From NCBI GenBank assembly GCA_934408705.1, contig CAKRVL010000034.1:1-23418 (forward strand): a DNA stretch of 23,418 bases. The letters run 5' to 3'. Source of the DNA: an uncultured Blautia sp. (lineage in GTDB: Bacteria > Bacillota > Clostridia > Lachnospirales > Lachnospiraceae). Positions 9,427 to 22,698 of this stretch are shown one piece after another. The translations under genes and the position numbers were made by a program. The notes under the pieces were generated by a model. It saw only the letters and a list, made by a program, of their open reading frames with translations, was not told the DNA's origin and did not search any database. Positions within the stretch are counted from its first letter, which is position 1. Each line of letters begins with the position of its first letter.

Positions 9427-9975
9427 TTATTCCTGACCGCCCCAGAAATCAACTGGTTCGTAGTCCTGCAATTTTGCCAGAAAGCCTTTATGCTGAAGCT
9501 CTTCCTGAATAGCATCCAGGATTTCTTCACTTTCGGCATCAATGGTATGGTAGTGATAACCTGAAGTTACATTCATCAGAAGACTGGACTTGCCTGTACT
9601 GATCTCTTCCATGTAACTGCGGATGTCCCGGCGGGATTTGATTCCCATTTCTGCTTTCAGTACACCGTATACCTTGTGATAGACAAATACATCACGAATT
9701 TGTCCACCGGCATCTACAATGGTGCTCAGTTCTTCCTCTACCTGATTCTCTGTATGATAAATCTTAAAAACTCTGGAGTATTTCTTCTCTTCCTGCAGAA
9801 GATAGCCCTTGTTAGTGGAAAAGATGGAGGCTCCGTTGGCACGCAGGAGAGAAATATCCTGAACAATAATCTGGCGGCTTACATTTAACTCCTGGGAGAG
9901 CATACCACCGGAAACGGGACTATTGCTGGAGGATAAGATATTCAAAAGCTTTTTTCTTCTTTCTTCACCTTTCAT
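9427..9975 (-). CDS. niaR: NiaR, niacin-responsive repressor of NAD synthesis
   Basis: A 182-aa protein with an N-terminal winged helix (HTH_11, about 5-60, recognition region LNVSRQIIVQDISLLR) and a C-terminal 3H domain, named for three conserved histidines (here in VFVYHKVYG and SGYHYHTID). NiaR/YrxA binds nicotinic acid and represses NAD biosynthesis and niacin uptake genes in Firmicutes. It is the third gene after nadB and nadC (37-nt gap, AGGAGAT site), so it probably represses its own operon and nadA as well. No clear terminator follows. Confidence 0.92.
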   Translation of the reverse strand: MKGEERRKKLLNILSSSNSPVSGGMLSQELNVSRQIIVQDISLLRANGASIFSTNKGYLLQEEKKYSRVFKIYHTENQVEEELSTIVDAGGQIRDVFVYHKVYGVLKAEMGIKSRRDIRSYMEEISTGKSSLLMNVTSGYHYHTIDAESEEILDAIQEELQHKGFLAKLQDYEPVDFWGGQE

Positions 9976-10012
9976 AATGTCATCTCCTGTCTGCTGGTTT
10001 TTCGGTGGAAAT

Positions 10013-10870
10013 TCACTCCACCGGATGAAGATTCTTCATGGATAGATCCATAATAGGAGCGGAATGTGTAAGTGCTCCGCTTGATACATAATTTACACCT
10101 AAACCGGTAAGTCTTGCAATGTTTTCTTTTGTCACATTTCCGGAAACTTCGATTTCGGCACGACCTGCAATATAATCAATGGCTTCTTTCAGCTGTTCTG
10201 TAGTCATGTTATCCAGCATGATAATATCTGCACCGGCTTCTACAGCTTCTTTAACCATGTCAAGGTTCTCAACCTCAACCTCGATCTTGCGGACAAAAGG
10301 TGCATAAGCTTTTGCCATGGAAATGGCCTGTTTTACGCCTCCTGCAGCGCCGATATGGTTATCCTTCAGAAGAACACCGTCGGAAAGATTATAGCGATGA
10401 TTATTGCCGCCGCCTACACGAACGGAATATTTCTCAAAAATACGATTGTTTGGAGTGGTTTTACGGGTGTCAAGAAGCTTGATTCCTGTGCCCTGAAGAA
10501 GGGCTGCAACCTGGCTTGTGTAGGTGGCAATTCCACTCATTCTCTGAAGATAGTTGAGGGCAGTTCTTTCACCGCAGAGGAGTACACGGATGTCTCCGTA
10601 AATTTTTCCAACTAACTGTTTATTTTCTACGTGGTCGCCGTCTTTTACATAGAATTCAGCCTTTGTGGATGGATCCAGAAGTGTGAAGACACGTTCAAAT
10701 ACCTGAAGACCACAGATGATTCCGTCTTCTTTACAGATAAGATCTACAACGCCTGGAGTCGGATCCGGCATAACGCTGTTGGTGGATACGTCCTCGCTGG
10801 TGATGTCTTCTTTTAAGGCGCTTAAAATAAATGGATCAACGTTTAATCCGAGAGTTACCTGATCATACAT
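10013..10870 (-). CDS. nadC: Nicotinate-nucleotide pyrophosphorylase (carboxylating)
   Basis: A 285-aa enzyme that turns quinolinate and PRPP into nicotinate mononucleotide, CO2 and pyrophosphate, the third step of NAD synthesis from aspartate. The family signature is complete: LLDTRKTTPNNR, then EKYSVRVGGGNNHRYNLSDG and LLKDNHIGAAGG, then EVEVENL and DIIMLDNM around the barrel. ATG 10870 is the start: it has an AAAGGAA site and the domain begins there. An open frame extending back to 11041 lies within nadB and is spurious. nadB and nadC overlap by 8 nt, so they are translated together. Confidence 0.95.
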   Translation of the reverse strand: MYDQVTLGLNVDPFILSALKEDITSEDVSTNSVMPDPTPGVVDLICKEDGIICGLQVFERVFTLLDPSTKAEFYVKDGDHVENKQLVGKIYGDIRVLLCGERTALNYLQRMSGIATYTSQVAALLQGTGIKLLDTRKTTPNNRIFEKYSVRVGGGNNHRYNLSDGVLLKDNHIGAAGGVKQAISMAKAYAPFVRKIEVEVENLDMVKEAVEAGADIIMLDNMTTEQLKEAIDYIAGRAEIEVSGNVTKENIARLTGLGVNYVSSGALTHSAPIMDLSMKNLHPVE

Positions 10871-12236
10871 ATAAAAATTCCTTTCTGCCTTCTGTATTCT
10901 GGCCAAGAGCGATGGCCTGGGTGGCAAGGTGGTGATAAGTTTCTGCAAGAGCCGGTGCATCTTCGTATTGGCTGAAATCTGTATGAGAAGCAAGGCTTCT
11001 GGCAATTTCATCAGTATTTTCCTGTACATGGCAATTATCATCAGTATTTGTCTGAGTAGATGTCAGGGCAGCCAGATCATGCTCTGTCATATCCTGTGCA
11101 GCCCGTCTTGCGAAGACAAGGCTCTCCAGCAGGGAGTTGCTTGCAAGGCGGTTTTTGCCATGGACACCGTTGCAGGCTGCTTCACCTACTACATAAAGAT
11201 TTTCCATAGAGGAGTGGCTTTCATAATTAACCTTCACACCGCCCATAAAATAATGCTGTGCCGGAACAACAGGAATACATTCTTTAAAAACATCATATCC
11301 CATTTCCTTGCAGTGTTCAACAATGTTTGGAAAATGCTGGCGGAGAGTTTCGGCGGGGATTGTGCGAAGATCTTCCCAGACAAAATCAGTGCCGTCTTTT
11401 GCCATCTGTTCATGAATCTTCTGGGAAAGAAGGTCACGAGGCAGCAGCTCATTTACGAAACGGTTCATGTTTTTATCATATAGCTTGGCGCCTTCACCGC
11501 GGACGGACTCGGAAATCAGAAAGCTGCGGTCTTCCGGGCGTTTGGTGTAGAAGGTGGTAGGGTGGATCTGCACATAATCCGGATTCTGCAGTTCAATATT
11601 ATGCTTGCTGGCAATTGCAAGAGCATCGCCGGTAAGATGACGGAAGTTGGTAGAATGCTTGTAAAGTCCACCTACTCCGCCGCTTGCCATAACTGTATAT
11701 GTAGCGGTGATGGTGTCAAGGGAACCGTCAGGACGACGGATCACGGCACCGTAGCAGTGATTGTCTTTTTCCAGAATATCAACCAGAGTAGTGTATTCCA
11801 GAAGTTCTACGTTAGGCAGCGTCTGGACCTGACGAAGCAGGGAACTGGTGATTTCTTTTCCTGTTACATCTTTATGGTAAATAATACGGTTAGTGGAGTG
11901 CGCACCTTCTTTGGTGTAAGCAAGGCTGCCATCCTCGTTACGTTGGAATCGGGCACCATAGGAAACCAGATCCTGCACAACCTCAGGGGAAGTCTTGATC
12001 ATGATTTCTACAGATTTTTCGTCGTTTTCGTAATGACCGGCCTTCATGGTGTCTTCGAAAAAGCTTTCGTAGTCGGACTGCTCTTTCAGCATACACATGC
12101 CGCCCTGGGCAAGATAAGAGTCGTTGCTGATAAGGTCTGACTTGGTTATAATAGTGATTTTTTTATCGCGAGGGAGCTTGAGGGCACAGTAAAGTCCGGA
12201 GCATCCACTTCCTGCGATGAGGATATCTGTTTTCAT
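10863..12236 (-). CDS. nadB: L-aspartate oxidase
   Basis: A 457-aa FAD enzyme that oxidises aspartate to iminoaspartate, the first step of de novo NAD synthesis. It has the dinucleotide fold GSGCSG (9-14), the SYLAQGG loop (about 40-47), the active-site stretches GAHSTNRIIYH and SVRGEGAKLYD, the HYFMGG motif and the ending GEAACNGVHGKNRLASNS. The C-terminal helical domain is shorter than in the E. coli enzyme (about 540 aa), common for Firmicutes. In anaerobes fumarate, not oxygen, is the probable electron acceptor. First gene of nadB-nadC-niaR. Confidence 0.95.
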   Translation of the reverse strand: MKTDILIAGSGCSGLYCALKLPRDKKITIITKSDLISNDSYLAQGGMCMLKEQSDYESFFEDTMKAGHYENDEKSVEIMIKTSPEVVQDLVSYGARFQRNEDGSLAYTKEGAHSTNRIIYHKDVTGKEITSSLLRQVQTLPNVELLEYTTLVDILEKDNHCYGAVIRRPDGSLDTITATYTVMASGGVGGLYKHSTNFRHLTGDALAIASKHNIELQNPDYVQIHPTTFYTKRPEDRSFLISESVRGEGAKLYDKNMNRFVNELLPRDLLSQKIHEQMAKDGTDFVWEDLRTIPAETLRQHFPNIVEHCKEMGYDVFKECIPVVPAQHYFMGGVKVNYESHSSMENLYVVGEAACNGVHGKNRLASNSLLESLVFARRAAQDMTEHDLAALTSTQTNTDDNCHVQENTDEIARSLASHTDFSQYEDAPALAETYHHLATQAIALGQNTEGRKEFLYV

Positions 12237-12370
12237 AATTGTGGGTCCTTTTACTTAAAAGTCAGGTTAATGTTCACAGAGAATATTCTGGAAATTCTCA
12301 TATGAATGGTTGCATAAAATGGTTGCATAAATGTGTTCGGAAAGTTGCCTGACCGAGCAACATGCCTTGT

Positions 12371-12399
12371 AGTATAACACCAAACTTTACAATTGACAA
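12371..12399 (-). promoter_or_regulatory. Sigma-A promoter of nadB-nadC-niaR
   Basis: On the minus strand TTGTCA (12399-12394), 17 bp, TATACT (12376-12371). The leader to the nadB start is about 130 nt. Confidence 0.75.
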
Positions 12400-12411
12400 G
12401 ATAGCTGTAAA
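12386..12411. promoter_or_regulatory. Candidate NiaR operator (TTTACA-N14-TGTAAA)
   Basis: A perfect 6-bp inverted repeat (12386-12391, 12406-12411) covers the -35 of the nadB promoter and ends 8 bp before the -35 of the nadA promoter. Its place between two divergent NAD promoters, with niaR in the same cluster, makes NiaR the likely binder. I have not matched it to a published consensus. Confidence 0.5.
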
Positions 12412-12419
12412 CTTTTTTC

Positions 12420-12448
12420 TTGACAGTGAAGGGGCAAGGGCATATAAT
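12420..12448 (+). promoter_or_regulatory. Sigma-A promoter of nadA
   Basis: TTGACA (12420-12425), 17 bp, TATAAT (12443-12448): a full consensus match. The start site near 12455 gives a leader of about 240 nt that includes the MITE-like element. Confidence 0.88.
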
Positions 12449-12480
12449 CCTAAGAAAATGTCTGAAAAGAGTGGAGCCAT

Positions 12481-12644
12481 TAGAGCGTGTTTGAAAAATC
12501 ATTCCCGCAATCTGCACGCCCCACTTTGCGGGAGATTTCACCCGAATTCGGTTGCCGTAGCCCGCTACGGCGCCCTCATCCGAGCGAAATCTACCACAAA
12601 TTGTGACGCGCATCTTGCAGAAAGCCTTTTTCAAACACGCTCTA
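12481..12644. mobile_element. MITE-like element with 18-bp terminal inverted repeats
   Basis: The ends are perfect inverted repeats of 18 bp, TAGAGCGTGTTTGAAAAA (12481-12498) and its complement (12627-12644). The outer TA on each side may be a target duplication, as in Tc1/mariner or IS630-type MITEs. Inside are further palindromes: CCCGCAA/TTGCGGG (12504-12532), AGATTTC/GAAATCT (12533-12539 with 12586-12592) and GCCGTAGC-CC-GCTACGGC (12554-12571). It codes for no credible protein. It lies between the nadA promoter and gene, so it is transcribed as part of the nadA leader. Confidence 0.75.
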
Positions 12645-12696
12645 GCAGTGAATGAGGGTTCCGTAATAAGTGAAAAAACAGGAGTGAATAACGATT

Positions 12697-13617
12697 ATGA
12701 TGACTACAAGACAGCTGCAGGATGAGATTCTGCGTTTAAAGAAGGAAAAAGATATTTGCATTTTGGCGCATGCATACCAAAACCATGAGATTCTGGAGGT
12801 CGCAGATTACACAGGTGATTCTTACGGATTGAGTCAGCAGGCTGCCAAGGCACCTCAGAAGAATGTACTGATGTGTGGTGTTCGTTTTATGGCTGAGACA
12901 GTGAAGATTCTTTCCCCGGAGAAAACGGTTTATCTTTCAAATAGTGGTGCAGGATGTCCGATGGCTGAGCAGCTGGATGTGGAAATGCTTTTGGCACTGA
13001 AGGAAGCTAATCCGGATTATACTGTTGTAGCGTATATCAACACCACTTCTGAATTGAAAACCATCTGTGATGTGTGTGTAACTTCTTCTTCCGCAGTGAA
13101 GATTGTAAAAAATATTAAGAATGATAAGATCCTGTTTATCCCAGACTGTAATTTGGGAGCATGGGTGGAAAAGCAGATTCCGGAGAAGACCTTTAAATTT
13201 GTTCACGGTGGATGTCCGACTCATCTTAGAATGTCTGTAAGAGATGTGAAGAAGGCAAGAGAGGCCCATCCGGATGCGAAATTCCTGGTTCATCCGGAAT
13301 GTCTGCCGGAGGTTTCTGCAATGGCAGATTATATTGGAAGCACTACCGGAATTATGAAATATGCCAAAGAAAGTGATGCCAAAGAATTTATTATCGGTAC
13401 AGAGAACAGCATTGTTCAGCATCTTCAGTTTGAGTGTCCGGATAAGAAATTCTATCCGCTATCTAAGGACTGTGTATGCCATAACATGAAGCTTACAACT
13501 TTGATGGATGTTTATAATTGTGTCCGTGGTCAGGGCGGGGAAGAGATCATGTTGGATGAAGAGGTGAGAGTAAAGGCGAAGGCTTGTATTGATACAATGC
13601 TGACATTAGGGGAATAG
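12697..13617 (+). CDS. nadA: Quinolinate synthase A
   Basis: A 306-aa enzyme that condenses iminoaspartate with dihydroxyacetone phosphate to quinolinate, the second step of NAD synthesis, using an oxygen-sensitive [4Fe-4S] cluster. The three expected cluster ligands can be placed at Cys87 (GAGCPMAEQ), Cys173 (HGGCPTHLR) and Cys261 (CVCHNMK), with spacings of 86 and 88 residues as in known NadA structures. HAYQNHE near residues 25-31 and NTTSELK at 115-121 are further family blocks. An AGGAGTG site lies 8 nt before the ATG; a second ATG follows at once. It is divergent from nadB and probably under the same repressor. Confidence 0.95.
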   Translation: MMTTRQLQDEILRLKKEKDICILAHAYQNHEILEVADYTGDSYGLSQQAAKAPQKNVLMCGVRFMAETVKILSPEKTVYLSNSGAGCPMAEQLDVEMLLALKEANPDYTVVAYINTTSELKTICDVCVTSSSAVKIVKNIKNDKILFIPDCNLGAWVEKQIPEKTFKFVHGGCPTHLRMSVRDVKKAREAHPDAKFLVHPECLPEVSAMADYIGSTTGIMKYAKESDAKEFIIGTENSIVQHLQFECPDKKFYPLSKDCVCHNMKLTTLMDVYNCVRGQGGEEIMLDEEVRVKAKACIDTMLTLGE

Positions 13618-13697: not shown

Positions 13698-13790
13698 GCA
13701 TATTTTTATCTGCTTACACAAATAAAATATGTGAAAAACAGACGTGGAACAATTGAAAAGGTAAAAAAAATATAAAAAAATGACGGATTT

Positions 13791-13824
13791 TTGGAAAGCC
13801 AACAGATGCGTATTTGTGTATAAT
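13791..13824 (+). promoter_or_regulatory. Probable activator-dependent promoter of the sugar ABC operon
   Basis: A perfect TATAAT (13819-13824) lies 37 bp before the ABC start, but no -35 lies at 16-18 bp. Where it should be there is a small palindrome TTGG-AAAG-CCAA (13791-13802). A poor -35 suits a promoter that needs an AraC-type activator such as the regulator at 19391. Inference. Confidence 0.4.
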
Positions 13825-13860: not shown

Positions 13861-15369
13861 ATGAAAGAGATATTACTGAGAATGAAGGATATTAGTAAAA
13901 CTTTCGGCAGCGTGCAGGCATTAAAAGCAGTTTCTCTGGACCTTTATGCGGGTGAGGTACTTGCCCTGATGGGAGAAAACGGAGCTGGAAAATCAACACT
14001 GATGAATATTCTCAGCGGCTCCTTGCAGCCAACGGAAGGCGAAATTTTTCTGAAAGGAGAAAAAGTAACGGTTTCTAATCCGATTACTGCAAAGAAGCTG
14101 GGCATATCCAAAATTCATCAGGAACTTCAGATCGTACCGGAATTAAGTGTGGCAGAAAATATTTTTCTTGGCAGATGGATGAAGAAAAAGAATGGTTCTG
14201 TTGACTTTAAGGCTATGTCTGCCGAGGCACGCAAATATCTTGAAATGCTGGATGTGCATGTGGATCCCACAATGAAACTGAAGGATCTTCGAATCGGAGA
14301 ACAACAGCTGGTAGAAATTGCAAAGGCAATATCCTTAAATTCAGAGATTATCATTATGGATGAGCCCACCTCCGCGATCAGCGAAAAAGAAGCAGACAAG
14401 CTTTTCACAATTATCCGTAAGCTTCGAAGTGAGGGAAAAGGAATCATCTACATTACCCATCGAATGGAGGAAATCTTTAAGATTGCTGACAGGCTTACTG
14501 TAATGCGTGACGGTATGTATATTGATACGGTAAAAGCTTCTGAAACCTCCAAGGATGAGATCATCCGTATGATGGTAGGTCGTGATATGAGCGAGCAGTA
14601 TCCAAAGGATCCTACGAAAAAAGGTGAGATTGCATTAGAAGTTAAAAATCTTACATACAAGCCGCCTGTAGGAAGCTTTCGAAGGTCTTTGAAAGATATT
14701 TCCTTGTATGTGAGACACGGAGAGGTTCTGGGAATTGCAGGACTTGCCGGCGCCGGAAGATCAGAATTTTTTGAGTGTCTTGCAGGTGTGCATTATAAGG
14801 AGACGACAGGAACAGTTATTATTGATGGAAAAGAAGTCTTTATTAAAAATCCGGCCGATGCAATTCGTGCAGGCATTTCCTTTGCAACAGAGGATCGTAA
14901 AGGAACAGGTCTGGTACTCCAAAGATCAATTGGAGAAAATATGTCTCTTCCCCTTTTAAAAAAGTTCAGTCCCCGTTTTTTTATGAAAACAGGAGATGAG
15001 AAGAAAGAATGGGATAAACAGATGGATACGCTCCGGGTTAAGGCGCAGGGAACAAAAACTCCTGCAAAAGCGCTTTCCGGAGGTAATCAACAGAAGGTTG
15101 TACTTGGAAGATGGCTGATGACAGAGCCGAAGATTCTGCTTTTGGATGAGCCTACACGTGGTATTGACGTAGGTGCAAAAGCGGAGATTTATCAGTTGAT
15201 CAATAATCTTGCAAAACAGGGAATGGCGATTATTGTAGTATCTTCGGAGCTTCCAGAAGTAATTGGTATTTCGGATAGAATTGTTATTTTCTGTGAAGGG
15301 GAGCTGACCGGTGAGTATGCACAGGAAGATGCTACACAGGAAAAACTGCTTCAGAGTGCAACGAAATAA
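13861..15369 (+). CDS. Sugar ABC transporter ATP-binding protein (RbsA/MglA type)
   Basis: A 502-aa protein with two ABC modules in tandem, the layout of monosaccharide importers. Module one (about 5-240) has Walker A GENGAGKST, signature LRIGEQQLVEIAK and Walker B EIIIMDEPTSAIS. Module two (about 255-500) has a changed Walker A (GLAGAGRSE), signature ALSGGNQQKVVLGRW and Walker B LLLDEPTRGID, as is normal for RbsA and MglA. It powers import through the permease encoded 13 nt downstream. The start ATG 13861 has an AGGAGG site; an open frame from 13780 has none. Confidence 0.95.
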   Translation: MKEILLRMKDISKTFGSVQALKAVSLDLYAGEVLALMGENGAGKSTLMNILSGSLQPTEGEIFLKGEKVTVSNPITAKKLGISKIHQELQIVPELSVAENIFLGRWMKKKNGSVDFKAMSAEARKYLEMLDVHVDPTMKLKDLRIGEQQLVEIAKAISLNSEIIIMDEPTSAISEKEADKLFTIIRKLRSEGKGIIYITHRMEEIFKIADRLTVMRDGMYIDTVKASETSKDEIIRMMVGRDMSEQYPKDPTKKGEIALEVKNLTYKPPVGSFRRSLKDISLYVRHGEVLGIAGLAGAGRSEFFECLAGVHYKETTGTVIIDGKEVFIKNPADAIRAGISFATEDRKGTGLVLQRSIGENMSLPLLKKFSPRFFMKTGDEKKEWDKQMDTLRVKAQGTKTPAKALSGGNQQKVVLGRWLMTEPKILLLDEPTRGIDVGAKAEIYQLINNLAKQGMAIIVVSSELPEVIGISDRIVIFCEGELTGEYAQEDATQEKLLQSATK

Positions 15370-15382
15370 GGAGGGGAGACAG

Positions 15383-16363
15383 ATGGATAAGAAGAAAATG
15401 AAGGCTATGCTCAAACAGATGCAAAGCGTGATTGCACTGGTTATTATATTTATAGTGGCATCTACTATTTGTGTCAAAGATGGTAAAAATAACTTTCTTG
15501 ATATCAGAAACCTGATGAATGTATTAAGAGCTGTATCAGAAAATGGAATTATTGCCATTGGTATGACCATTATTCTGATTTTGGGAGATATCGATCTTTC
15601 TGTAGGTTCTGTTGTAGGTCTGATTTCAACCGGTTGTGCTTATCTGATGGTGAAAAGCGGACTTGGTTTTATTCCTGCTATTTTGGTAAGCCTTGGAATC
15701 GGTGCATTATTTGGTTTATTTAATGGTATCTGTATTACAAAGCTGAAATTACAGGCATTTATTGTTACTCTTGCATCTATGAATATTGCCAGAGGACTTG
15801 CCAGATTCTGGGCCAATGGAATTGGTATTCCTCTTGCCTATGGTAAAGGAGAAGGAATGGCACCGCCTGCATTTGAAGTACTTCAGATGCGTCTTGGAGG
15901 AATCGTACCGGTGCCGGCAATTATTTTTATTGCTCTTCTTATCATTTTCCAGATCATACTTGGAAAAACCAGATTTGGAAGACAGGTATATGCGATTGGT
16001 GGAAATAAAAATGCAGCTTATCTTTCCGGAATTAAGGTTGACAGAATCAAAATCTATGCGTTTATGATCTGTGCAATGCTTTCTTCTGTGGCAGCTATGA
16101 TCCATGCGGCTCAGATCAGTCAAGGTGGACCAAATGAAGGTCAGGGTTATGAGCTGAACGCAGTGGCAGCCTGTGCAATCGGCGGAACCAGTCTTGCTGG
16201 TGGAAAAGGAACGGTAGTTGGTACTTTGATCGGTGCTTTGATTCTTGGAATGCTGGATAATGTTCTTGGTCTTAAGGGAGTTAACTCAAACCTGCAGCTG
16301 ATGGTAAAAGGTTTCCTTATCATTATCGCAGTATTTATGCAGGCAGATAAAGTAAGTGACTGA
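15383..16363 (+). CDS. Sugar ABC transporter permease (RbsC type)
   Basis: A 326-aa membrane protein with eight to ten hydrophobic segments, typical for the BPD_transp_2 family. The signature AIGMTIILILGDIDLSVGS and the coupling-region motif ACAIGGTSLAGGKGTVVGT are present. It would form a homodimer channel with the tandem ATPase. The start at ATG 15383 follows a GGAGGGG site 13 nt after the ATPase stop. An open frame extends back into the ATPase gene to 15311, but the protein's basic N-terminus and first helix fit the ATG. Confidence 0.94.
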   Translation: MDKKKMKAMLKQMQSVIALVIIFIVASTICVKDGKNNFLDIRNLMNVLRAVSENGIIAIGMTIILILGDIDLSVGSVVGLISTGCAYLMVKSGLGFIPAILVSLGIGALFGLFNGICITKLKLQAFIVTLASMNIARGLARFWANGIGIPLAYGKGEGMAPPAFEVLQMRLGGIVPVPAIIFIALLIIFQIILGKTRFGRQVYAIGGNKNAAYLSGIKVDRIKIYAFMICAMLSSVAAMIHAAQISQGGPNEGQGYELNAVAACAIGGTSLAGGKGTVVGTLIGALILGMLDNVLGLKGVNSNLQLMVKGFLIIIAVFMQADKVSD

Positions 16364-16386
16364 TAAAAAGAAATGGAAAGAGAAAT

Positions 16387-16425
16387 AATTTTCAGGTTCT
16401 GTCCGGCAGCAGCTTCCTGAAAATT
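16387..16425 (+). promoter_or_regulatory. Intercistronic hairpin before the binding-protein gene
   Basis: A perfect 10-bp stem AATTTTCAGG/CCTGAAAATT (16387-16396, 16416-16425) lies between permease and binding-protein genes and is followed by only a short T run. Such hairpins often shield the mRNA of the binding protein so that it is made in excess. Confidence 0.55.
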
Positions 16426-16466
16426 TATATAACAAATTAACGAGATGCCGGAGAAAGAAGGTAAGT

Positions 16467-17441
16467 ATGAATAAAAAGATGATCAGTATCCTTTTGACAG
16501 CAGCTATGGGAGTTTCTGTTCTGGCAGCAGGAACAGTTACAGTCAGTGCAGCAGAGAAAAAAGACAAATATGTGATCGGAATGTCACAGTGTAATCTGGG
16601 TGAGCCGTGGCGTGTTGCAATGAATGACCAGATTGCTATGGCAGCAGAGAAATATCCTGAATTTGAAGTAATTTATGCAGATGCAGCTCAGGACAACTCC
16701 AAACAGATCGCAGATATTGAAAATTTCGTACAGATGGGTGTGGATCTTATCATTACCTCTCCTAACGAAGCGACTCCTCTTACCAATGCAGTAAGCGCAG
16801 CTTATGATGCTGGAATTCCGGTTATCCTTCTAGACAGAAAGATTGATGGAGACAAATATACACAGTTTATCGGTGCTGATAATGTAGACATGGGCCGTAT
16901 TGCAGGAGAATATGTTGCTGATACACTTCTTCCAGATGGTGGAAAAGTATGCGAGATTAAAGGCCTTGAAGGAACCTCCGGTGGAATTGACAGAGACAAC
17001 GGTTTCCGTGAAGGAATTAAGAAAAATGACAAAATCGAGATTGTTGCAGTAAACAATGCAGACTGGCTTCGTGAAAAAGCAATCACAGTTGCAGAAGAAA
17101 TGCTTCAGACAAATGATGATATTGACCTGTTCCTGGCACTGAACGATCCTATGGCAGAGGGTGCATATATTGCAGCTAAGAATGCAGGAAGAGAAGGAGA
17201 TATCCTTTTCGTTGGATTTGATGGACTTCCTACTCCTGACGGTGGAATCAGAAGCGTTATGGACGGAAGACTTAGCATGACTCAGGTTTATCCTACAGGT
17301 GGCGCAGAGGCTATCGAAAGTGCATATCAGCTCCTGGTTGAAGGAAAAGAGCTTGACAAAACTCTCACTCTTACTTCCGAAATCGTTATTCCAGACAATG
17401 CAGAAGAACTTCTGGAAAAATTCGGTGGATCAGCGGAATGA
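16467..17441 (+). CDS. Sugar-binding protein of the ABC importer, secreted without lipobox
   Basis: A 324-aa type I periplasmic-binding fold (Peripla_BP_4). A classic signal peptide (1-28) ends in VSA before AEKKDK. There is no cysteine near the cleavage site, so it is not a lipoprotein. Family blocks seen: EPWRVAMND (sugar contact), DLIITSPNE, PVILLDRKI, AGEYVADTL, GIDRDNGFREG, NADWLREKA, ALNDPMAEGAY and FVGFDG. The IDRxxGF and ND blocks resemble YtfQ-type monosaccharide binders, but the sugar cannot be named. Third gene of the transporter operon. A paralogue with a membrane anchor lies at 20611. Confidence 0.92.
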   Translation: MNKKMISILLTAAMGVSVLAAGTVTVSAAEKKDKYVIGMSQCNLGEPWRVAMNDQIAMAAEKYPEFEVIYADAAQDNSKQIADIENFVQMGVDLIITSPNEATPLTNAVSAAYDAGIPVILLDRKIDGDKYTQFIGADNVDMGRIAGEYVADTLLPDGGKVCEIKGLEGTSGGIDRDNGFREGIKKNDKIEIVAVNNADWLREKAITVAEEMLQTNDDIDLFLALNDPMAEGAYIAAKNAGREGDILFVGFDGLPTPDGGIRSVMDGRLSMTQVYPTGGAEAIESAYQLLVEGKELDKTLTLTSEIVIPDNAEELLEKFGGSAE

Positions 17442-17490
17442 TCAGATTCCTTTGAATAAGTCGAAAAAATTAAATATTACTGAAAATAAA

Positions 17491-17520
17491 AGCAGGGACA
17501 GTCTTGGCTGTTCCTGTTTT
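17491..17520 (+). terminator. Terminator of the sugar ABC operon
   Basis: A 9-bp stem CAGGGACAG/CTGTTCCTG (17493-17501, 17508-17516, one G-U) is followed by TTTT. It separates the transporter genes from the sensor genes. Confidence 0.8.
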
Positions 17521-17539
17521 GCACGTTACAGGTTTTTCA

Positions 17540-17568
17540 TTGACATGTATTCATAATTACTATATCAT
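17540..17568 (+). promoter_or_regulatory. Sigma-A promoter of the sensor operon
   Basis: TTGACA (17540-17545), 17 bp, TATCAT (17563-17568), 29 bp before the kinase start. It would give steady expression of kinase, regulator and sensor protein. Confidence 0.8.
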
Positions 17569-17597
17569 AAAAGAAATGACAGACAAAAGGAGAAACT

Positions 17598-19406
17598 ATG
17601 TTCCGTAAACTGAAAAATATTCTGCATCCGGAAAATATGTTGTTCAAAATGATCGTGCTGAACTGTGGTCTCCTTTTATTGGTTACACTGGTTTTGACAG
17701 CTGCAGGTAATTATATTTATCTGGAATCTATTGAAGAAAAGTCTTATGCCAATACTATGGAGATTCAAAATCAGGTTCTGAAATCACTAGATCTTATTTT
17801 TCAGTCCGTATCAGATAATATAGAGTTATTGGGAAAACAGCCTGCAGTGCAGGATTATTTGAAGGTTGATACTGAAAATCAACAGGCCAGCCGTGTAGAA
17901 TTAGAAGGTCTGGTACGAAATTTATTATTAGATTATTCAAAAACGTATACAGAGTATATAAATATTGTGGTGGTAAGTGCGAAAGGACAATATTTATCAA
18001 ACGATTCTTATCGAATCAAAAAATTATCTCTTACAGGGGAAAAATGGTACCAGGAGGCGGTAAACGGAGATGGCAGGCTGGTTTTAAGCACCAGCAGTCT
18101 GGGACGAAATCTGAAAAACTGGAAAAACTACAGTACGGATAGTTATGTAAGTACAGCTAAGTTAGTTAAAGATGATCAGACCGGAGAGGAAATTGGCGTG
18201 ATTCTGATCGATTTGGATTTGAAAAGTATTCAGAATCTTGTAGAAGATATTACTATGGGACAGACTGGATTTGGATATATTCAGGACAGTCGTGGACATG
18301 TATTGTATGCGCCGAAAAATGAGGTCGTATACCGAATGAATCCTGTCTGGGTAATGGATGGAAACAACGGAAGAGTACGGTGTCGGATCAAGGGAAAAGA
18401 TTATAATGTCATTTATACGCATTCCGGATACACAGATCTTACAGCCGTTGGTGTCTTTGACTGGGGAAAAACTATTGAGGGAGCGGCCAGGGTAAGAAGT
18501 GTTTCCAGATGGATCGCAGTGGTGATCATGATTTTTGCGGCAGGTATTACGGTAGCTTTTTCCGCATCCTTTACCAAACCTATTTCAGCGTTGTCAAAGC
18601 TTATGAAGAAGGCTCAGACCGGAGATATGACAGTACATTTCGAGAATCATTGCAAAGGGGAAATCAGACAGCTTGGAGATTCCTTTAATGCAATGGTGGA
18701 AAAAATCAATGAACTTCTTCAGATGGTTTATCAGGAGCAGAAAAATAAAAGAGAGGCGGAACTAAAAATACTGCACGAACAGATCAAGCCGCATTTTCTT
18801 TATAATACACTGGATACCATTCAATGGATGGCAAAACAGTATCATGCTCAGGATATTGTAGACATGGTGCTTGCGTTGTCTGGATTTTTCAGGATTAGTC
18901 TCAGCCAGGGAAAGGAATATATTTCAGTAGAGCAGGAAGTCCTGATGGTACAAAAATATCTGGATATTCAAAAAGTGCGATATGAAGATCTTTTTGAGTA
19001 CAAAACCCAGATTGAAAAAGATCTGGAAAAATATATGATGCTGAAAATCTGTCTGCAGCCTTTGGTGGAAAATGCACTTTACCATGGAATCAAGGAGTCT
19101 GAGGAATATCATGGAACCATTTGGATACGCGCTTTTTCAGAAGGGGATGAAGCATTTGTTCTGGTTGTAGAGGATGATGGAGCCGGGATGAGTGAGGAAA
19201 AAATGGAACAGTTAAACTCCTGGCTTAAAATGAAGGAACGGGATTCAAAAGTCGAGGCCTATGGAATTTTGAATGTAAATGACCGCATTAAGATTGCTTA
19301 TGGGGATGAGTACGGTCTGCACTATGAAAAAAGAACGGGAGGAGGTACCATCGCAGTTGTAAGACTGAAAAAGGTACATAAAGAAGACGTATGTGGAAAG
19401 TGTTAA
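17598..19406 (+). CDS. Sensor histidine kinase, YesM/LytS type
   Basis: A 602-aa membrane kinase. TM1 is at about 16-38, followed by an extracytoplasmic Cache-like sensor domain (about 40-300), TM2 (304-324) and a HAMP linker to about 380. The His_kinase domain (PF06580) has the phosphorylated His399 in IKPHFLYNTLDTIQW, followed by the ATPase with N box LQPLVENALYHG (Asn492) and VEDDGAGMS (526-532). Kinases of this type pair with AraC-like regulators and control sugar genes. The gene ends 16 nt inside the regulator gene, so the two are coupled. The likely stimulus is the sugar, directly or through the anchored binding protein at 20611. Confidence 0.94.
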   Translation: MFRKLKNILHPENMLFKMIVLNCGLLLLVTLVLTAAGNYIYLESIEEKSYANTMEIQNQVLKSLDLIFQSVSDNIELLGKQPAVQDYLKVDTENQQASRVELEGLVRNLLLDYSKTYTEYINIVVVSAKGQYLSNDSYRIKKLSLTGEKWYQEAVNGDGRLVLSTSSLGRNLKNWKNYSTDSYVSTAKLVKDDQTGEEIGVILIDLDLKSIQNLVEDITMGQTGFGYIQDSRGHVLYAPKNEVVYRMNPVWVMDGNNGRVRCRIKGKDYNVIYTHSGYTDLTAVGVFDWGKTIEGAARVRSVSRWIAVVIMIFAAGITVAFSASFTKPISALSKLMKKAQTGDMTVHFENHCKGEIRQLGDSFNAMVEKINELLQMVYQEQKNKREAELKILHEQIKPHFLYNTLDTIQWMAKQYHAQDIVDMVLALSGFFRISLSQGKEYISVEQEVLMVQKYLDIQKVRYEDLFEYKTQIEKDLEKYMMLKICLQPLVENALYHGIKESEEYHGTIWIRAFSEGDEAFVLVVEDDGAGMSEEKMEQLNSWLKMKERDSKVEAYGILNVNDRIKIAYGDEYGLHYEKRTGGGTIAVVRLKKVHKEDVCGKC

Positions 19407-20605
19407 TCGCAGATGACGAGCCAAAAATCCGGTTGGGGCTGAAAACTGTACTGGGAGAAATGGAACTTTCGGTTACAGTTTGTGCAGAGGCCAGAAATGG
19501 GATAGAGGCACTGGAAAAAACGAGACAGTGTCAGCCTGATTTTCTTCTGTTGGATATATGTATGCCAAGATTAAGCGGAATCCAGTTTTTGGAAGAGCTA
19601 AGAAAAATCAACAAGGATTGTCCGGTAATTGTCATTTCCGGATTTAATGAGTTTGCTTATGCAAAGCAGGCTATGAAGCTTGGCGTATCCGAGTATCTTC
19701 TGAAGCCTATAGCGGAAGAGGAATTACGGATTGCGGTGCAAAGAGTGATAGAAGAAATAAAACAGAAGCGAAAAAATGAAAAATACCTTGAATTGGTGAA
19801 ACAGCAGGTGATTCAGAATCAGGAATACTTGAGAAATGTGTTTTTTAATGATTGGATAGAGGGAAAATTATCCAAAGCTGAATGGAAAGAACAGGCAGAA
19901 TTTCTGGAAATGCATTTTTCAGAGCCTATGGTTCTCATACTGGCGGCAGTCCAGCCAGGATATGACACAAAGATGGATAAAGGTGAGAGCGCAGATAAAG
20001 AAGACAAGACCACCTTTAAAAAGGTTCTTTGTGAACTTCTGGAATCCTATTCTGTAATCGGCAGCTTTTCAAGTAAAGAGGAAGAGTTGATGGTTGTATT
20101 GAAGGATATACCGGAAGAACTGGATGCATTTTATAAAAAAATACAGGTGCAGACAGAAGAAAAAGTAAGGGAAAGATGTATAGTTACTGTTGGAAATTGT
20201 GTATTTGAAACATTTCCTGAGGTAAGCAGAGAAATGCGTCATAAAATCCAGAAGATGCTGGAGTGCAGACCGGTAGTTCAGGATGCCAGAAAATATATTT
20301 ATGCGAATTATCAGGATCGAAATCTGGATCTTTGGCAGGTGTCTCATGCGGTAGGTTGTAATTCATCTTATATGAGCAGGATTATGAAAAAGGAACTGGG
20401 AATTTCTTTTAAAGATTTTCTTACAAAGCTTCGGATCAACCAGGCAGTTGAGCTTATGAAAAACCGGGAATTATCTATTAATCAGATAGCAGAGATGGTG
20501 GGATATAGTAATCAGCATTATTTTTCAGCAGCGTTTAAAAACTGTCAGGGAATGTCACCTTCGGAATATCGTAAAAATTTGCCGCAGGCGGATAAAATTG
20601 GATAA
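19391..20605 (+). CDS. Response regulator with AraC DNA-binding domain (YesN type)
   Basis: A 404-aa regulator. The receiver domain (1-120) has Asp8/Asp9, the phosphorylated Asp55 (LLLDICMPRLSG), Ser83 and Lys105 (LLKP). A middle region of about 170 residues links it to two helix-turn-helix motifs at about 300-395 (LWQVSHAVGCNSSYMSRIMKK and INQIAEMVGYSNQHYFSAAFK), the AraC/XylS signature ending in MSPSEYRK. It probably activates the sugar ABC operon, whose promoter lacks a good -35. It has only a weak ribosome site inside the kinase gene, consistent with coupled translation. Confidence 0.94.
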   Translation: MWKVLIADDEPKIRLGLKTVLGEMELSVTVCAEARNGIEALEKTRQCQPDFLLLDICMPRLSGIQFLEELRKINKDCPVIVISGFNEFAYAKQAMKLGVSEYLLKPIAEEELRIAVQRVIEEIKQKRKNEKYLELVKQQVIQNQEYLRNVFFNDWIEGKLSKAEWKEQAEFLEMHFSEPMVLILAAVQPGYDTKMDKGESADKEDKTTFKKVLCELLESYSVIGSFSSKEEELMVVLKDIPEELDAFYKKIQVQTEEKVRERCIVTVGNCVFETFPEVSREMRHKIQKMLECRPVVQDARKYIYANYQDRNLDLWQVSHAVGCNSSYMSRIMKKELGISFKDFLTKLRINQAVELMKNRELSINQIAEMVGYSNQHYFSAAFKNCQGMSPSEYRKNLPQADKIG

Positions 20606-20610
20606 ATACT

Positions 20611-21537
20611 ATGAAAAAAGCTTGGGAAAAAGGAATTGTTATATTAGGGGCAGTAATCTTAGCGTTATTCTTTTGTCTGGGAAAAAAAGAAGAAAAAGTG
20701 TATACGAATGGTTATCAGTATTTAATCGGAGTTAGTGTTCCCAATGTTATTGAGCCATGGTTGAATAATTTTATTGATGCACTTACCGAAAAGGCAGAAT
20801 CTGATATGTCAGTCAATATCATTTTTCGTGATGCGGCCGGAAATTCAGAAAAGCAGCTTCAGGATATTCGGTCGTTAACAGAGTGTGGAATTGATCTTCT
20901 TATTGTGTCACCAAATGACAGCAACAGTCTCAATCAGGTTTTGCAAGAAACATTCCGTAAAATACCGATAATTTTAGCGGGAGTTGGAGTACAAAGTGAG
21001 GATTATACGTGTCTGATCCAGGCAGATGATAAGAAAATCGGCAGACTGGCAGGGGAGTATATTCTGGAAAATCTGTATGAACAGAATCAGAGAATCGTGG
21101 TATTTGAAGGCGTAGAAGATTCACAGGTATCGAAGCAAAGAAAAGAAGGTTTTCAAAATGCCATTCAGGGAAAAATTCCGGAAACAGATATTACTTATTA
21201 CAACGGGGAATGGCTTCGGGACCGGGCAGAATTAAGAATGAAAGATTACCTGATTGCTCATGATTTCGCAGAAATTGTTTTCGCATTTAATGATGATATG
21301 GCGTATGGAGCATATCTGGCATACCAGCAATACCGTATGGACGGAACGGTGCATATAATAGGAGTCGATGGATTTGAAGGGGAAAGCGAAGGCTTGAATC
21401 TGGTAAACAGGGGTATTCTCGATGCAACGATACAGACTCCGGATTTTGGCGGACTGTCATATGAAATTGCAAAGAGAATATTGAATGGGGAAAAAGTGGA
21501 CAGGAATATTATTATCCAGCCGAAGCTGATTTTTTGA
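20611..21537 (+). CDS. Membrane-anchored sugar-binding protein, probable co-sensor
   Basis: A 308-aa type I binding-protein fold, clearly a paralogue of the protein at 16467. Shared blocks are EPW, DLLIVSPND, AGEYILENL, EWLRDRAE, FNDDMAYGAYLAY and IGVDGFEG. The N-terminus has a basic start and a hydrophobic helix (9-23) that ends in FFCLGKKEE. Phenylalanines before the Cys do not fit a lipobox, so it probably stays as an uncleaved anchor. It starts 5 nt after the regulator stop with almost no ribosome site, so it depends on coupling. Its place after kinase and regulator, with no ATPase or permease of its own, points to sensing, as for XylFII or AraP-type proteins. Confidence 0.85.
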   Translation: MKKAWEKGIVILGAVILALFFCLGKKEEKVYTNGYQYLIGVSVPNVIEPWLNNFIDALTEKAESDMSVNIIFRDAAGNSEKQLQDIRSLTECGIDLLIVSPNDSNSLNQVLQETFRKIPIILAGVGVQSEDYTCLIQADDKKIGRLAGEYILENLYEQNQRIVVFEGVEDSQVSKQRKEGFQNAIQGKIPETDITYYNGEWLRDRAELRMKDYLIAHDFAEIVFAFNDDMAYGAYLAYQQYRMDGTVHIIGVDGFEGESEGLNLVNRGILDATIQTPDFGGLSYEIAKRILNGEKVDRNIIIQPKLIF

Positions 21538-21574: not shown

Positions 21575-21602
21575 TTGACAGAGATTTGATTAAGTGTAAA
21601 AT
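21575..21602 (+). promoter_or_regulatory. Sigma-A promoter of the U32-like gene
   Basis: TTGACA (21575-21580), 16 bp, TAAAAT (21597-21602), about 45 bp before the start. It allows expression apart from the sensor operon. Confidence 0.65.
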
Positions 21603-21648
21603 ATTGGAAAGCAGTACAATATAAGAATATCAGGTATCAGTGATTTTC

Positions 21649-22566
21649 ATGGGAGAAATAACAGAGATGACAGATAAAGCCTATTACCATCTTCCTGGCT
21701 TGTTCGAGTTTTATGAGTTATATCAGGAATTTTTGCCGTTGTTTTATGAGCATAGAGAATATTTTTACGACTGGTGTGAGATCGGTTCCATTTATGGGGC
21801 TCCGGCAGATTGTATCTGGGGTGGCGGACGTGCTGGCTTCGGAGAATATGATCCGGAGGAAGTGTTGGCGCTGATGAAGAAATGGGGGATTTCTGCGCGG
21901 CTGACGTTCAGCAATTCGCTGCTTCGTAAAGAGCACCTTTCGGATGGAAAATGTAATGCGCTGTGTAAACTTTTTGAGAGTAAGGGAGCAGTTCAAAATG
22001 GCGTAATTGTTCATTCTGAACTGTTACTTGATTATTTGAAAAATAATTATCCGGGACTTTATTTTGTATCCTCAACAACTAAAGTTCTTACAGAGTTTGA
22101 ACAGCTTTATGATGAAATAAGGCGGGAAGAGTTCCGTTATGTAGTGCCTGATTTTCGACTGAATAAAGCATTTAAACAGCTTGATGCTTTGACGAAAAAG
22201 CAGAAGGAAAAAGTGGAGTTTCTTTGTAATGAGTGCTGCTGGTATGGATGTAAAGACCGGAAGCGATGCTATGAAAATGTAAGCCGCAAAAATCTGGGAG
22301 AGGGTTGCCTGGATCATCGGTGTAGTGCGCCGAATGCAAAGGAAGGGTATCTTTTTTCAAAGGCAATGACAAACCCAGGGTTTATCGGAATTTCAGATAT
22401 AAAAAATATCTACCTGCCGATGGGATTTTCCAATTTTAAAATCGAAGGCCGTAGTCTTGGAAGTGCATTGATTCTGGAATTTTTGCTTTATTATATGACG
22501 AAACCGGAGTACCAGATTCATGTAAGAGAGAAAATATATCTGGATAATATGCTGGATCTGTTTTAA
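21649..22566 (+). CDS. Cysteine-rich protein related to the U32 peptidase family
   Basis: A 305-aa soluble protein. Near the end it has GFSNFKIEGRSLGS (from 259), close to the U32/UbiU hallmark G-x-x-x-x-KIEGR, and earlier strands (RLTFSNSLL, GVIVHSELLL, LYFVSSTTKVL, YVVPDFRLN) that fit a TIM-barrel like U32 proteins. Seven cysteines lie within residues 193-225 (CNECC, YGCKDRKRC, GCLDHRC), a possible Fe-S or zinc site; U32 relatives UbiU and UbiV bind [4Fe-4S]. Function is unknown to me. Start choice is not certain: GTG 21640 and ATG 21667 are also in frame and no ribosome site is strong. Own promoter and terminator. Confidence 0.75.
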   Translation: MGEITEMTDKAYYHLPGLFEFYELYQEFLPLFYEHREYFYDWCEIGSIYGAPADCIWGGGRAGFGEYDPEEVLALMKKWGISARLTFSNSLLRKEHLSDGKCNALCKLFESKGAVQNGVIVHSELLLDYLKNNYPGLYFVSSTTKVLTEFEQLYDEIRREEFRYVVPDFRLNKAFKQLDALTKKQKEKVEFLCNECCWYGCKDRKRCYENVSRKNLGEGCLDHRCSAPNAKEGYLFSKAMTNPGFIGISDIKNIYLPMGFSNFKIEGRSLGSALILEFLLYYMTKPEYQIHVREKIYLDNMLDLF

Positions 22567-22585
22567 GACAATCGGTCATTATAGT

Positions 22586-22648
22586 AAAGCCGGTACGAGA
22601 TAGCGAAGAGGATATGTAACCTCCTCTTGACTATCAAGTACCGGCTTT
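22586..22648 (+). terminator. Long hairpin terminator between convergent genes
   Basis: AAAGCCGGTAC/GTACCGGCTTT (22586-22596, 22638-22648) forms an 11-bp outer stem. GATAG/CTATC and AAGAGGA/TCCTCTT continue it inward. TTTGTT follows on the plus strand and TTTACT on the minus, so it could serve both convergent genes. Confidence 0.7.
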
Positions 22649-22698
22649 GTTAAAGCTTTATGAAATTAGATTTTTATAGAATTATAGGAAAAGCTGCT

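Follow-up and report, generated by a model that had tools for sequence, protein, structure and literature searches.

A six-gene sugar transport and sensing cassette of an uncultured Blautia sp. resembles known three-component sugar sensors

Known sugar sensors and the Blautia cassette

The sugar sensor AraPST of Geobacillus stearothermophilus is a trio composed of a kinase, a regulator and a sugar-binding protein, located beside a sugar importer. A comparable arrangement was analysed here in a DNA stretch of 23,418 nucleotides (hereafter the window; contig CAKRVL010000034.1) from an uncultured species of the gut genus Blautia. Six genes, all on the plus strand at positions 13861..21537, encode the ATPase and the permease of a sugar ATP-binding cassette (ABC) importer, a transport solute-binding protein (SBP1), a sensor histidine kinase (HK), a response regulator (RR) and a second, membrane-anchored binding protein (SBP2). 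By its sequence, this uncharacterised cassette belongs with CuaDSR, XylFII-LytS-YesN and AraPST to the known class of three-component sugar sensors, and we consider it fairly probable that it represents a CuaDSR-like system controlling one dedicated importer. No published description of the cassette was found in a literature search that covered few subscription papers.

The characterized systems are compared here on the basis of extracts of the cited papers. In CuaDSR of Ruminiclostridium cellulolyticum, the sensor operon is constitutive, the transport operon is induced by cellobiose and CuaR recognises the upstream region of cuaA (PMC5663094). The outer domain of the kinase CuaS (CuaSEC, 267 residues), for which the extracts report no named domain, was modelled as a rod of two five-stranded alpha/beta modules, and two-hybrid experiments indicate that it binds CuaD, a second SBP encoded in the sensor operon (PMC10384115). 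In our interpretation, CuaSEC would correspond to a double Cache fold. The Blautia cassette likewise displays a second SBP in the sensor operon, a large two-module kinase domain, a YesN/AraC regulator and an adjacent transport operon with its own SBP. The two systems differ in that CuaA and CuaD are Family-1 SBPs for cellobiose and cellodextrins (PMC5663094, PMC10384115), whereas both Blautia SBPs are of the PF13407 type; moreover the CuaABC operon is listed with an SBP, two membrane proteins and a phosphorylase, whereas the Blautia transport operon carries an ATPase gene and a single permease gene.

XylFII-LytS-YesN of Clostridium beijerinckii is similar in that a sugar-binding sensor protein acts on the outer domain of the kinase (complex 5XSJ; PMC6321045). 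SBP2 has 2x7x and ribose-binding proteins as its best solved relatives, and XylFII is not among the best 60 of the 109 matches of the SBP2 profile. The resemblance to AraPST, of which a related locus is described in Parageobacillus (PMC13068155), concerns the layout of the trio and the adjacent importer.

BT1754 is a fructose-sensing hybrid two-component system (PMC3404733; PDB 2x7x), and its sensor domain is by sequence the closest solved relative of both SBP1 and SBP2. SBP, kinase, receiver and AraC domains are fused there in one chain, whereas in the Blautia cassette they are distributed over separate genes, with a separate SBP and a dCache kinase, and SBP2 has lost three pocket residues. 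The LevQRST system of Streptococcus mutans responds to fructose and mannose with two binding proteins and one kinase; LevQ appears to be required for complex formation, and LevT takes part in sensing (PMC3043104). It shares with the Blautia cassette one kinase, one regulator, sugar-binding proteins without their own transporter and a fructose-type signal, the last being presumed in Blautia. LevQRST has two dedicated SBPs, a kinase with at most five predicted membrane helices and little outside the membrane, and phosphotransferase system (PTS) and fructanase targets (PMC3043104), whereas the Blautia cassette has a dCache kinase, an ABC importer as putative target and one SBP gene in the sensor operon, the other being assigned to the transport operon on the basis of the hairpin and promoter signs that lie between the two SBP genes.

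In the Blautia cassette, the gene of the sensor SBP has no transporter of its own and lies in an operon with those of the kinase and the regulator; the kinase is of the PF06580 type with an extracytoplasmic domain and the regulator is a YesN-type AraC protein. Kinase, regulator, SBP2, promoter box and transporter co-occur and decay together (see below). The SBP-assisted three-component architecture that had been proposed for this locus from its sequence, in what we call the original prediction, is supported. The type of layout is known; what appears distinct by sequence is that the sensor SBP comes from another branch, BT1754-like, than that of CuaDSR.

Gene content and transcription units

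Pfam and the coordinates of the genes (Table 1) confirm the transport-and-sense cassette of six genes, which are apparently arranged in two operons, one for transport (ATPase, permease, SBP1) and one for sensing (HK, RR, SBP2). HK displays the domains dCache_1, HAMP, His_kinase and HATPase, and both SBP1 and SBP2 belong to Peripla_BP_4. The genes of HK and RR overlap by 16 bp, and that of SBP2 starts 5 bp past RR. No NCBIfam cut-off was reached by the cassette proteins in the matches listed, therefore no curated sugar name applies; the best matches of the ATPase, all below the cut-off, are xylose, ribose and arabinose ATPases. SBP2 had also been described as an anchored paralogue of the transport binding protein devoid of its own transporter; in all the intact cassettes (11/11) its gene comes third in the sensor operon and is without dedicated transporter genes.

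The cassette probably comprises two transcription units, because a terminator-like hairpin and a near-consensus promoter are found between SBP1 and HK. The promoter that had been postulated for the kinase-regulator-SBP2 unit is supported by these sequence signs. The same interval contains a stable fold in 11/11 intact cassettes (best 45-nt fold of -19 to -33 kcal/mol, without shuffle control) and a loose match to the promoter pattern TTG...TA...T in 9/11 (no control).

Table 1. Features of the cassette in the window and location of the tandem relatives.
Feature	Position	Strand	Basis
Promoter box GTaAa-N5-TATAa...GA...gAAAtaCA, proposed RR site, 3' end at the -35 position	13761..13801	+	13-locus alignment
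-10 element TATAAT, 17 bp past the box	13819..13824	+	13-locus comparison
ATPase of sugar ABC importer, double ABC, CUT2 type	13861..15369	+	Pfam
Permease, RbsC/AraH-like	15383..16363	+	Pfam PF02653; NCBIfam below cut-off
SBP1, transport binding protein, secreted, without lipobox, BT1754-like pocket	16467..17441	+	PF13407
Terminator-like hairpin between the operons	17489..17520	+	Fold of 17475-17535, -21.4 kcal/mol, z -4.1
Promoter of the sensor operon, near-consensus, perfect -35	17540..17568	+	
HK, YesM-type sensor histidine kinase; double Cache outer domain, residues 40-294	17598..19406	+	
RR, YesN-type response regulator, receiver and AraC DNA-binding domain	19391..20605	+	Pfam
SBP2, membrane-anchored binding protein of the sensor operon, altered pocket	20611..21537	+	Pfam
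Tandem loci (outside the window): L006, L008-L015, L016, L019, L031, L043, L058	L006: 9965-11860		

A conserved box in the promoter of the transport operon

The DNA upstream of the ATPase gene is poorly alignable, except for 64 bp, from the GT at 13761 to the end of the -10 element at 13824, that were aligned by MAFFT without any gap in 13/13 loci. This segment begins with a box of 41 bp, the predicted operator. In all 13 loci, exactly 17 bp separate the motif AAATACA (AAAGCCA in the window) from the -10 element, which is TATAAT in 12 loci and TACAAT in L003. The site was chosen by this motif after the alignment was seen, and the spacing of 17 bp was not imposed. Searched with a leave-one-out profile, built without the tested row and without its near copies, the box ranks first of 29,500-46,702 positions in each of the 13 loci.

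The specificity of the box was evaluated in 64 genomes that belong to the same genus as L001, L002 and L004. With at most three mismatches, the pattern is present in one copy in each of 9 genomes (the cassette being intact in 7 and decayed in 2) and absent from the other 55, and the reversed pattern used as control gave 0/64. The pattern was derived from cassette loci, so that recovering these is expected; the informative part is the lack of match elsewhere. A laxer pattern applied to 14 genomes yielded only 5 extra matches (2-3 mismatches) versus 7 for the reversed control.

The -35 hexamer (AAGCCA in the window, AATACA in the other loci) matches TTGACA at only three positions of six. A weak -35 accompanied by a -10 that is perfect in 12/13 loci would be as expected of an activator-dependent promoter. 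We propose the conserved, single-copy box as the predicted site of RR on the adjacent transport promoter. Because it occurs once per carrier genome and in no genome devoid of a cassette, the simplest reading is that RR is dedicated to one promoter. A direct repeat within the box, composed of the 10-bp units AAATTATAAA and AAATTAGAAA at a step of 21 bp, seemed right in several loci and was rejected: the best window at lag 21 shows 7.62 of 13 matches, no better than lag 11 at 7.69.

Occurrence, conservation and decay of the cassette

Genomes were scanned with a profile built from the window SBP2 and 24 of its 143 homologues (120 listed), and the best 80 of 528 related stretches were retained. 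An SBP gene adjoins a kinase of the HK family in 21 of them (7 single SBPs and 14 tandem SBPs, the regulator being located elsewhere in the locus in 2 of the 14). The other stretches contain 44 single SBPs without HK-family kinase, 42 of which with an ATPase gene, 14 SBPs included in chains of 920-932 residues (L017, the one scanned, is a hybrid kinase and an example of the BT1754-like fused form) and one SBP protein of 472 residues. The complete six-gene cassette is present in 6 of the 80 stretches, and the gene order is kept in 11 intact cassettes (window, L001-L005, L007, L092-L094, L096).

In the 64 genomes of the genus survey, SBP2 was detected in 11 (E <= 1e-50), HK in 9 (E <= 1e-90; eight at 65-82% identity and one at 33%) and SBP1 in 7 (88-97% identity), the last accompanied by HK and SBP2 in 7/7. 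Among the four genomes that contain SBP2 without SBP1, two have a cassette cut by contig ends (L098 and L099, the latter genome having HK on another contig) and two have a decayed cassette. In L095 (12029-14467) an intact ATPase gene is directly followed by an SBP2 remnant without leader, and in L097 (10598-12481) ATPase, permease and SBP2 are all fragments; neither SBP1 nor HK was found in these two genomes at the thresholds of the survey (HK E <= 1e-90). Decay is also represented by P0073, a database protein with 56 member sequences and 22 contigs, in which part of the permease is fused to SBP2. Transport and sensor genes share presence and decay.

A survey of the whole family recovered one genome of 397, the source genome itself (E <= 1e-60; at most five candidates scored per genome, matches listed). 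This draw was spread evenly over a large family, and rarity is claimed only for the genus count. The kinase homologue P0138 belongs to Blautia schinkii. Within the 11 intact cassettes, the mean pairwise distances are 0.35 for HK, 0.44 for RR, 0.43 for SBP2 and 0.135 for SBP1, the divergence of the sensor proteins being about 2.5 to 3 times that of SBP1.

The binding proteins and the transported sugar

The best solved relative of SBP1 is 2x7x, the fructose-sensing domain of BT1754 (1.3e-59). The same structure is the best relative of SBP2 by sequence (2.6e-32) and by profile (3.4e-60, the next being at 1e-42), and it is the first fold match of the predicted SBP2 model, which has a pLDDT (predicted local distance difference test) of 90.9. 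Pockets were compared at 12 positions that we take to be the contacts of the E. coli ribose-binding protein, the residues of BT1754 being read at these positions. SBP1 displays C E W R D R R W N F D Y and BT1754 C D W R D R R W N I D Y; they are identical at 10 of the 12 positions and differ by D to E and I to F. At these positions SBP1 is like a BT1754-type, fructofuranose-binding SBP. Of three transport SBPs encoded nearby in tandem or related loci, two also display the set W-R-D-R-R-(W/F)-N-D, L018 being without it; these proteins are YtfQ-like, below the NCBIfam cut-off, and have S and C in place of the D/E and the Y of BT1754 and SBP1.

The ligand of SBP1 is likely a furanose, and fructose is the best single guess, to which we give a little more than even confidence. 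The original statement that the sugar is not known was thus too strong, the BT1754-like pocket of SBP1 pointing to a class of sugar.

The neighbourhood was also considered. In L005, a GH32 gene ends 272 bp before the ATPase and is preceded by a second GH32-like open reading frame (ORF), and in L095 a GH32 gene lies upstream at a distance of about 7 kb, adjacent to a sucrose/beta-glucoside-type PTS gene (below NCBIfam cut-offs). Occurrence at 2 of 13 loci has a rough P of about 0.01, assuming 2 GH32 genes per 3.3 Mb and for a family chosen post hoc. The survey of flanking genes included 59 ORFs in six loci, of which 9 were scanned with Pfam, some loci having little upstream sequence. As GH32 is present in 57 of the 64 genomes of the genus and was chosen post hoc, this neighbourhood was rejected as proof of fructose and retained as weak support.

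Concerning localization, SBP2 is held at the membrane according to its sequence, by an N-terminal helix in the window, and a lipobox-like Cys is present in 10 of the 12 proteins inspected. SBP2 of the window (20611-20690) and of L092 shows a plain N-terminal helix and no lipobox-like Cys. SBP1 (16467-16560 in the window) has no lipobox Cys and a signal peptidase I-like end in 8/8 window-type cassettes (window, L001, L002, L004, L092-L094, L096), while LAGC is present in L003, L005 and L007. In the window-type cassettes, SBP1 seems to be a Gram-positive transport SBP that has apparently lost its anchor.

Proposed mechanism

In the CuaDSR-like reading that we favour, the HK-RR-SBP2 operon would be expressed from its own near-consensus promoter, probably constitutively, and the anchored SBP2 would sit on the dCache domain of HK outside the membrane. 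A furanose-type signal, probably fructose or a fructose-bearing compound, would pass via SBP2 to HK, which would phosphorylate RR. RR would then bind the box, covering the weak -35 position, and turn on the genes of ATPase, permease and SBP1, the last capturing the same kind of sugar for uptake. Blautia-type Lachnospiraceae would thus possess a small and conserved unit of sensor and importer that apparently has a single target. Since its operator (41 bp) and its class of sugar are predicted, the complete pathway is amenable to testing in a reporter strain.

Several observations weigh against this mechanism. The pocket of SBP2 keeps E, W, R, W, N and D, and departs from the fructofuranose type at R/D/R and at Y. 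Among the 95 SBP2 homologues of 295-350 residues in those listed, R is replaced by L or I and D by G in 95/95, the second R by V or I in 83/95 and Y by S, C or T in 92/95. Because the pockets do not match, SBP2 may not bind the sugar of SBP1. The distances between proteins do not single out the pair HK-SBP2: in the 11 cassettes the correlation is 0.908 for HK-SBP2 and 0.932 for HK-SBP1, and in 22 loci 0.956 versus 0.898. As all gene pairs correlate highly, this mirror-tree test of the pairing was discarded as not informative. The dCache domain of HK is complete and could itself bind a ligand. Finally, the sugar is deduced from pocket likeness and a weak GH32 neighbourhood. Unequal pockets alone are not unheard of, because CuaA and CuaD already differ in specificity (PMC5663094, PMC10384115). 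The 12 pocket columns of SBP2 are moreover more conserved than the average of all 271 columns (0.88 vs 0.70, permutation P 0.003, 41 representatives), and by sequence the pocket is constrained yet different.

Tandem relatives and the role of SBP2

In 14 loci (Table 1), the third component is a protein of 612-647 residues with two sugar-binding domains, encoded beside a dCache-type kinase of the HK family and a sugar importer. Two Peripla_BP_4 stretches were delimited by Pfam in the 2 tandem proteins scanned of the 14. Nine records are of the Paenibacillus type or Propionispora, and the others are Herbinix, Eubacterium, Lachnospiraceae, Clostridia and Spirochaetaceae. In a tree of 70 binding-domain rows, SBP2 forms one clade (100/100), which is joined by the tandem N-terminal domains and two distal rows (97/87) and, in a larger group, by two separate SBPs (98/94). 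The BT1754-type domains are localized on the side of SBP2 at the deepest split with moderate support (94/78). Eight of the nine transport SBPs from loci of this kind group with the tandem C-terminal domains (100/100). The eight positions of the core pocket are all kept by the C-terminal domain in 14/14 tandem proteins. The N-terminal domain keeps eight in 2 proteins, seven in 2, six in 2 and three in 8, and is thus incomplete in 12/14; SBP2 keeps five of the eight.

These relatives are consistent with a four-component arrangement, in which SBP2 would be mainly a kinase-docking protein and loaded SBP1 would read the sugar and dock on the SBP2-HK complex, the tandem proteins fusing both roles. 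LevQRST offers a fructose/mannose precedent for two binding proteins acting with one kinase (PMC3043104). The conserved pocket columns of SBP2 speak for a bound ligand, however, and the 8 most decayed N-terminal domains, all from Paenibacillus, share one pattern, so that the number of independent pocket losses is small; furthermore, 13 of the 14 tandem loci still carry a separate transport SBP besides the C-terminal domain. We regard this arrangement as unlikely. It is likewise unlikely that SBP2 and the tandem N-terminal domains are, as a class, docking subunits that no longer read the transported sugar, which would be read by the transport-type SBP (the unanchored SBP1 in trans, the C-terminal domain in cis). 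If it were true, sugar would be reported in these bacteria to a dCache kinase by two binding proteins acting in relay, and the genuinely new element would be a sensor SBP that does not read sugar.

The same signalling domain is encountered fused in BT1754, as a separate protein in SBP2, and joined in tandem to a domain of the transport type. Because these three forms exist, the hand-over of sugar from binding protein to kinase can be tested by comparison.

The outer domain of HK

According to the original prediction, a Cache-like outer domain of about 260 residues would make the cassette a new version of the system. The domain is indeed present, and its novelty is not supported, since a large Cache-type kinase domain has a likely precedent in CuaS. 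The main oddity of the cassette is the altered pocket of SBP2 together with the tandem relatives, rather than the size of the Cache domain.

As dCache is a common direct-binding sensor fold (PMC6321045) and is complete in HK, the CuaDSR-like reading has to be weighed against a direct sensing of a small molecule by HK, SBP2 being an accessory or a spare protein without signalling role. This would leave unexplained the constant place of SBP2, without transporter genes of its own, as third gene of the sensor operon in the 11 intact cassettes, and the association of SBP genes with HK-family kinases in 21 of the best 80 loci. The motif R-x-W-Y, which we assume to be part of the amine-binding signature dCache_1AA, occurs in 0 of 49 kinase rows, and Glu is found at the position of Arg in 45/49. 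Another part of the signature is Y-x-D...D (PMC6321045); YxD is present within residues 100-235 in 30/49 rows and not in the window HK. The HK family thus lacks the amine-binding signature, with which sugars or other non-amine ligands of HK would be compatible. All these data make direct sensing improbable. The LytS outer domain (5XSJ) is not among the 50 matches listed, which has no bearing on likeness.

It is very improbable that the sensor operon regulates something other than the adjacent importer, their adjacency being historical, as all sites of the box lie upstream of the transport operon and the genomes that carry it all have an intact or decayed cassette, and as transporter and sensor genes share presence and decay.

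Flanking genes

Directly upstream of the cassette (9427-13617), genes resembling by eye those of a NadR-type regulator, nadC, nadB and nadA (synthesis of nicotinamide adenine dinucleotide) are present. Directly after it, positions 21640-22566 encode a protein of 308 residues without Pfam or NCBIfam match, preceded by its own promoter-like site (21575-21602). A very stable inverted repeat (22575-22665, -37.4 kcal/mol, z -7.6) separates this gene from that of a repeat-rich protein on the minus strand, surface-like by eye. Concerning the other loci, which were partly scanned, a sugar kinase of the pfkB family was seen only in L003 (16428-17366), about 5.5 kb downstream of the cassette.

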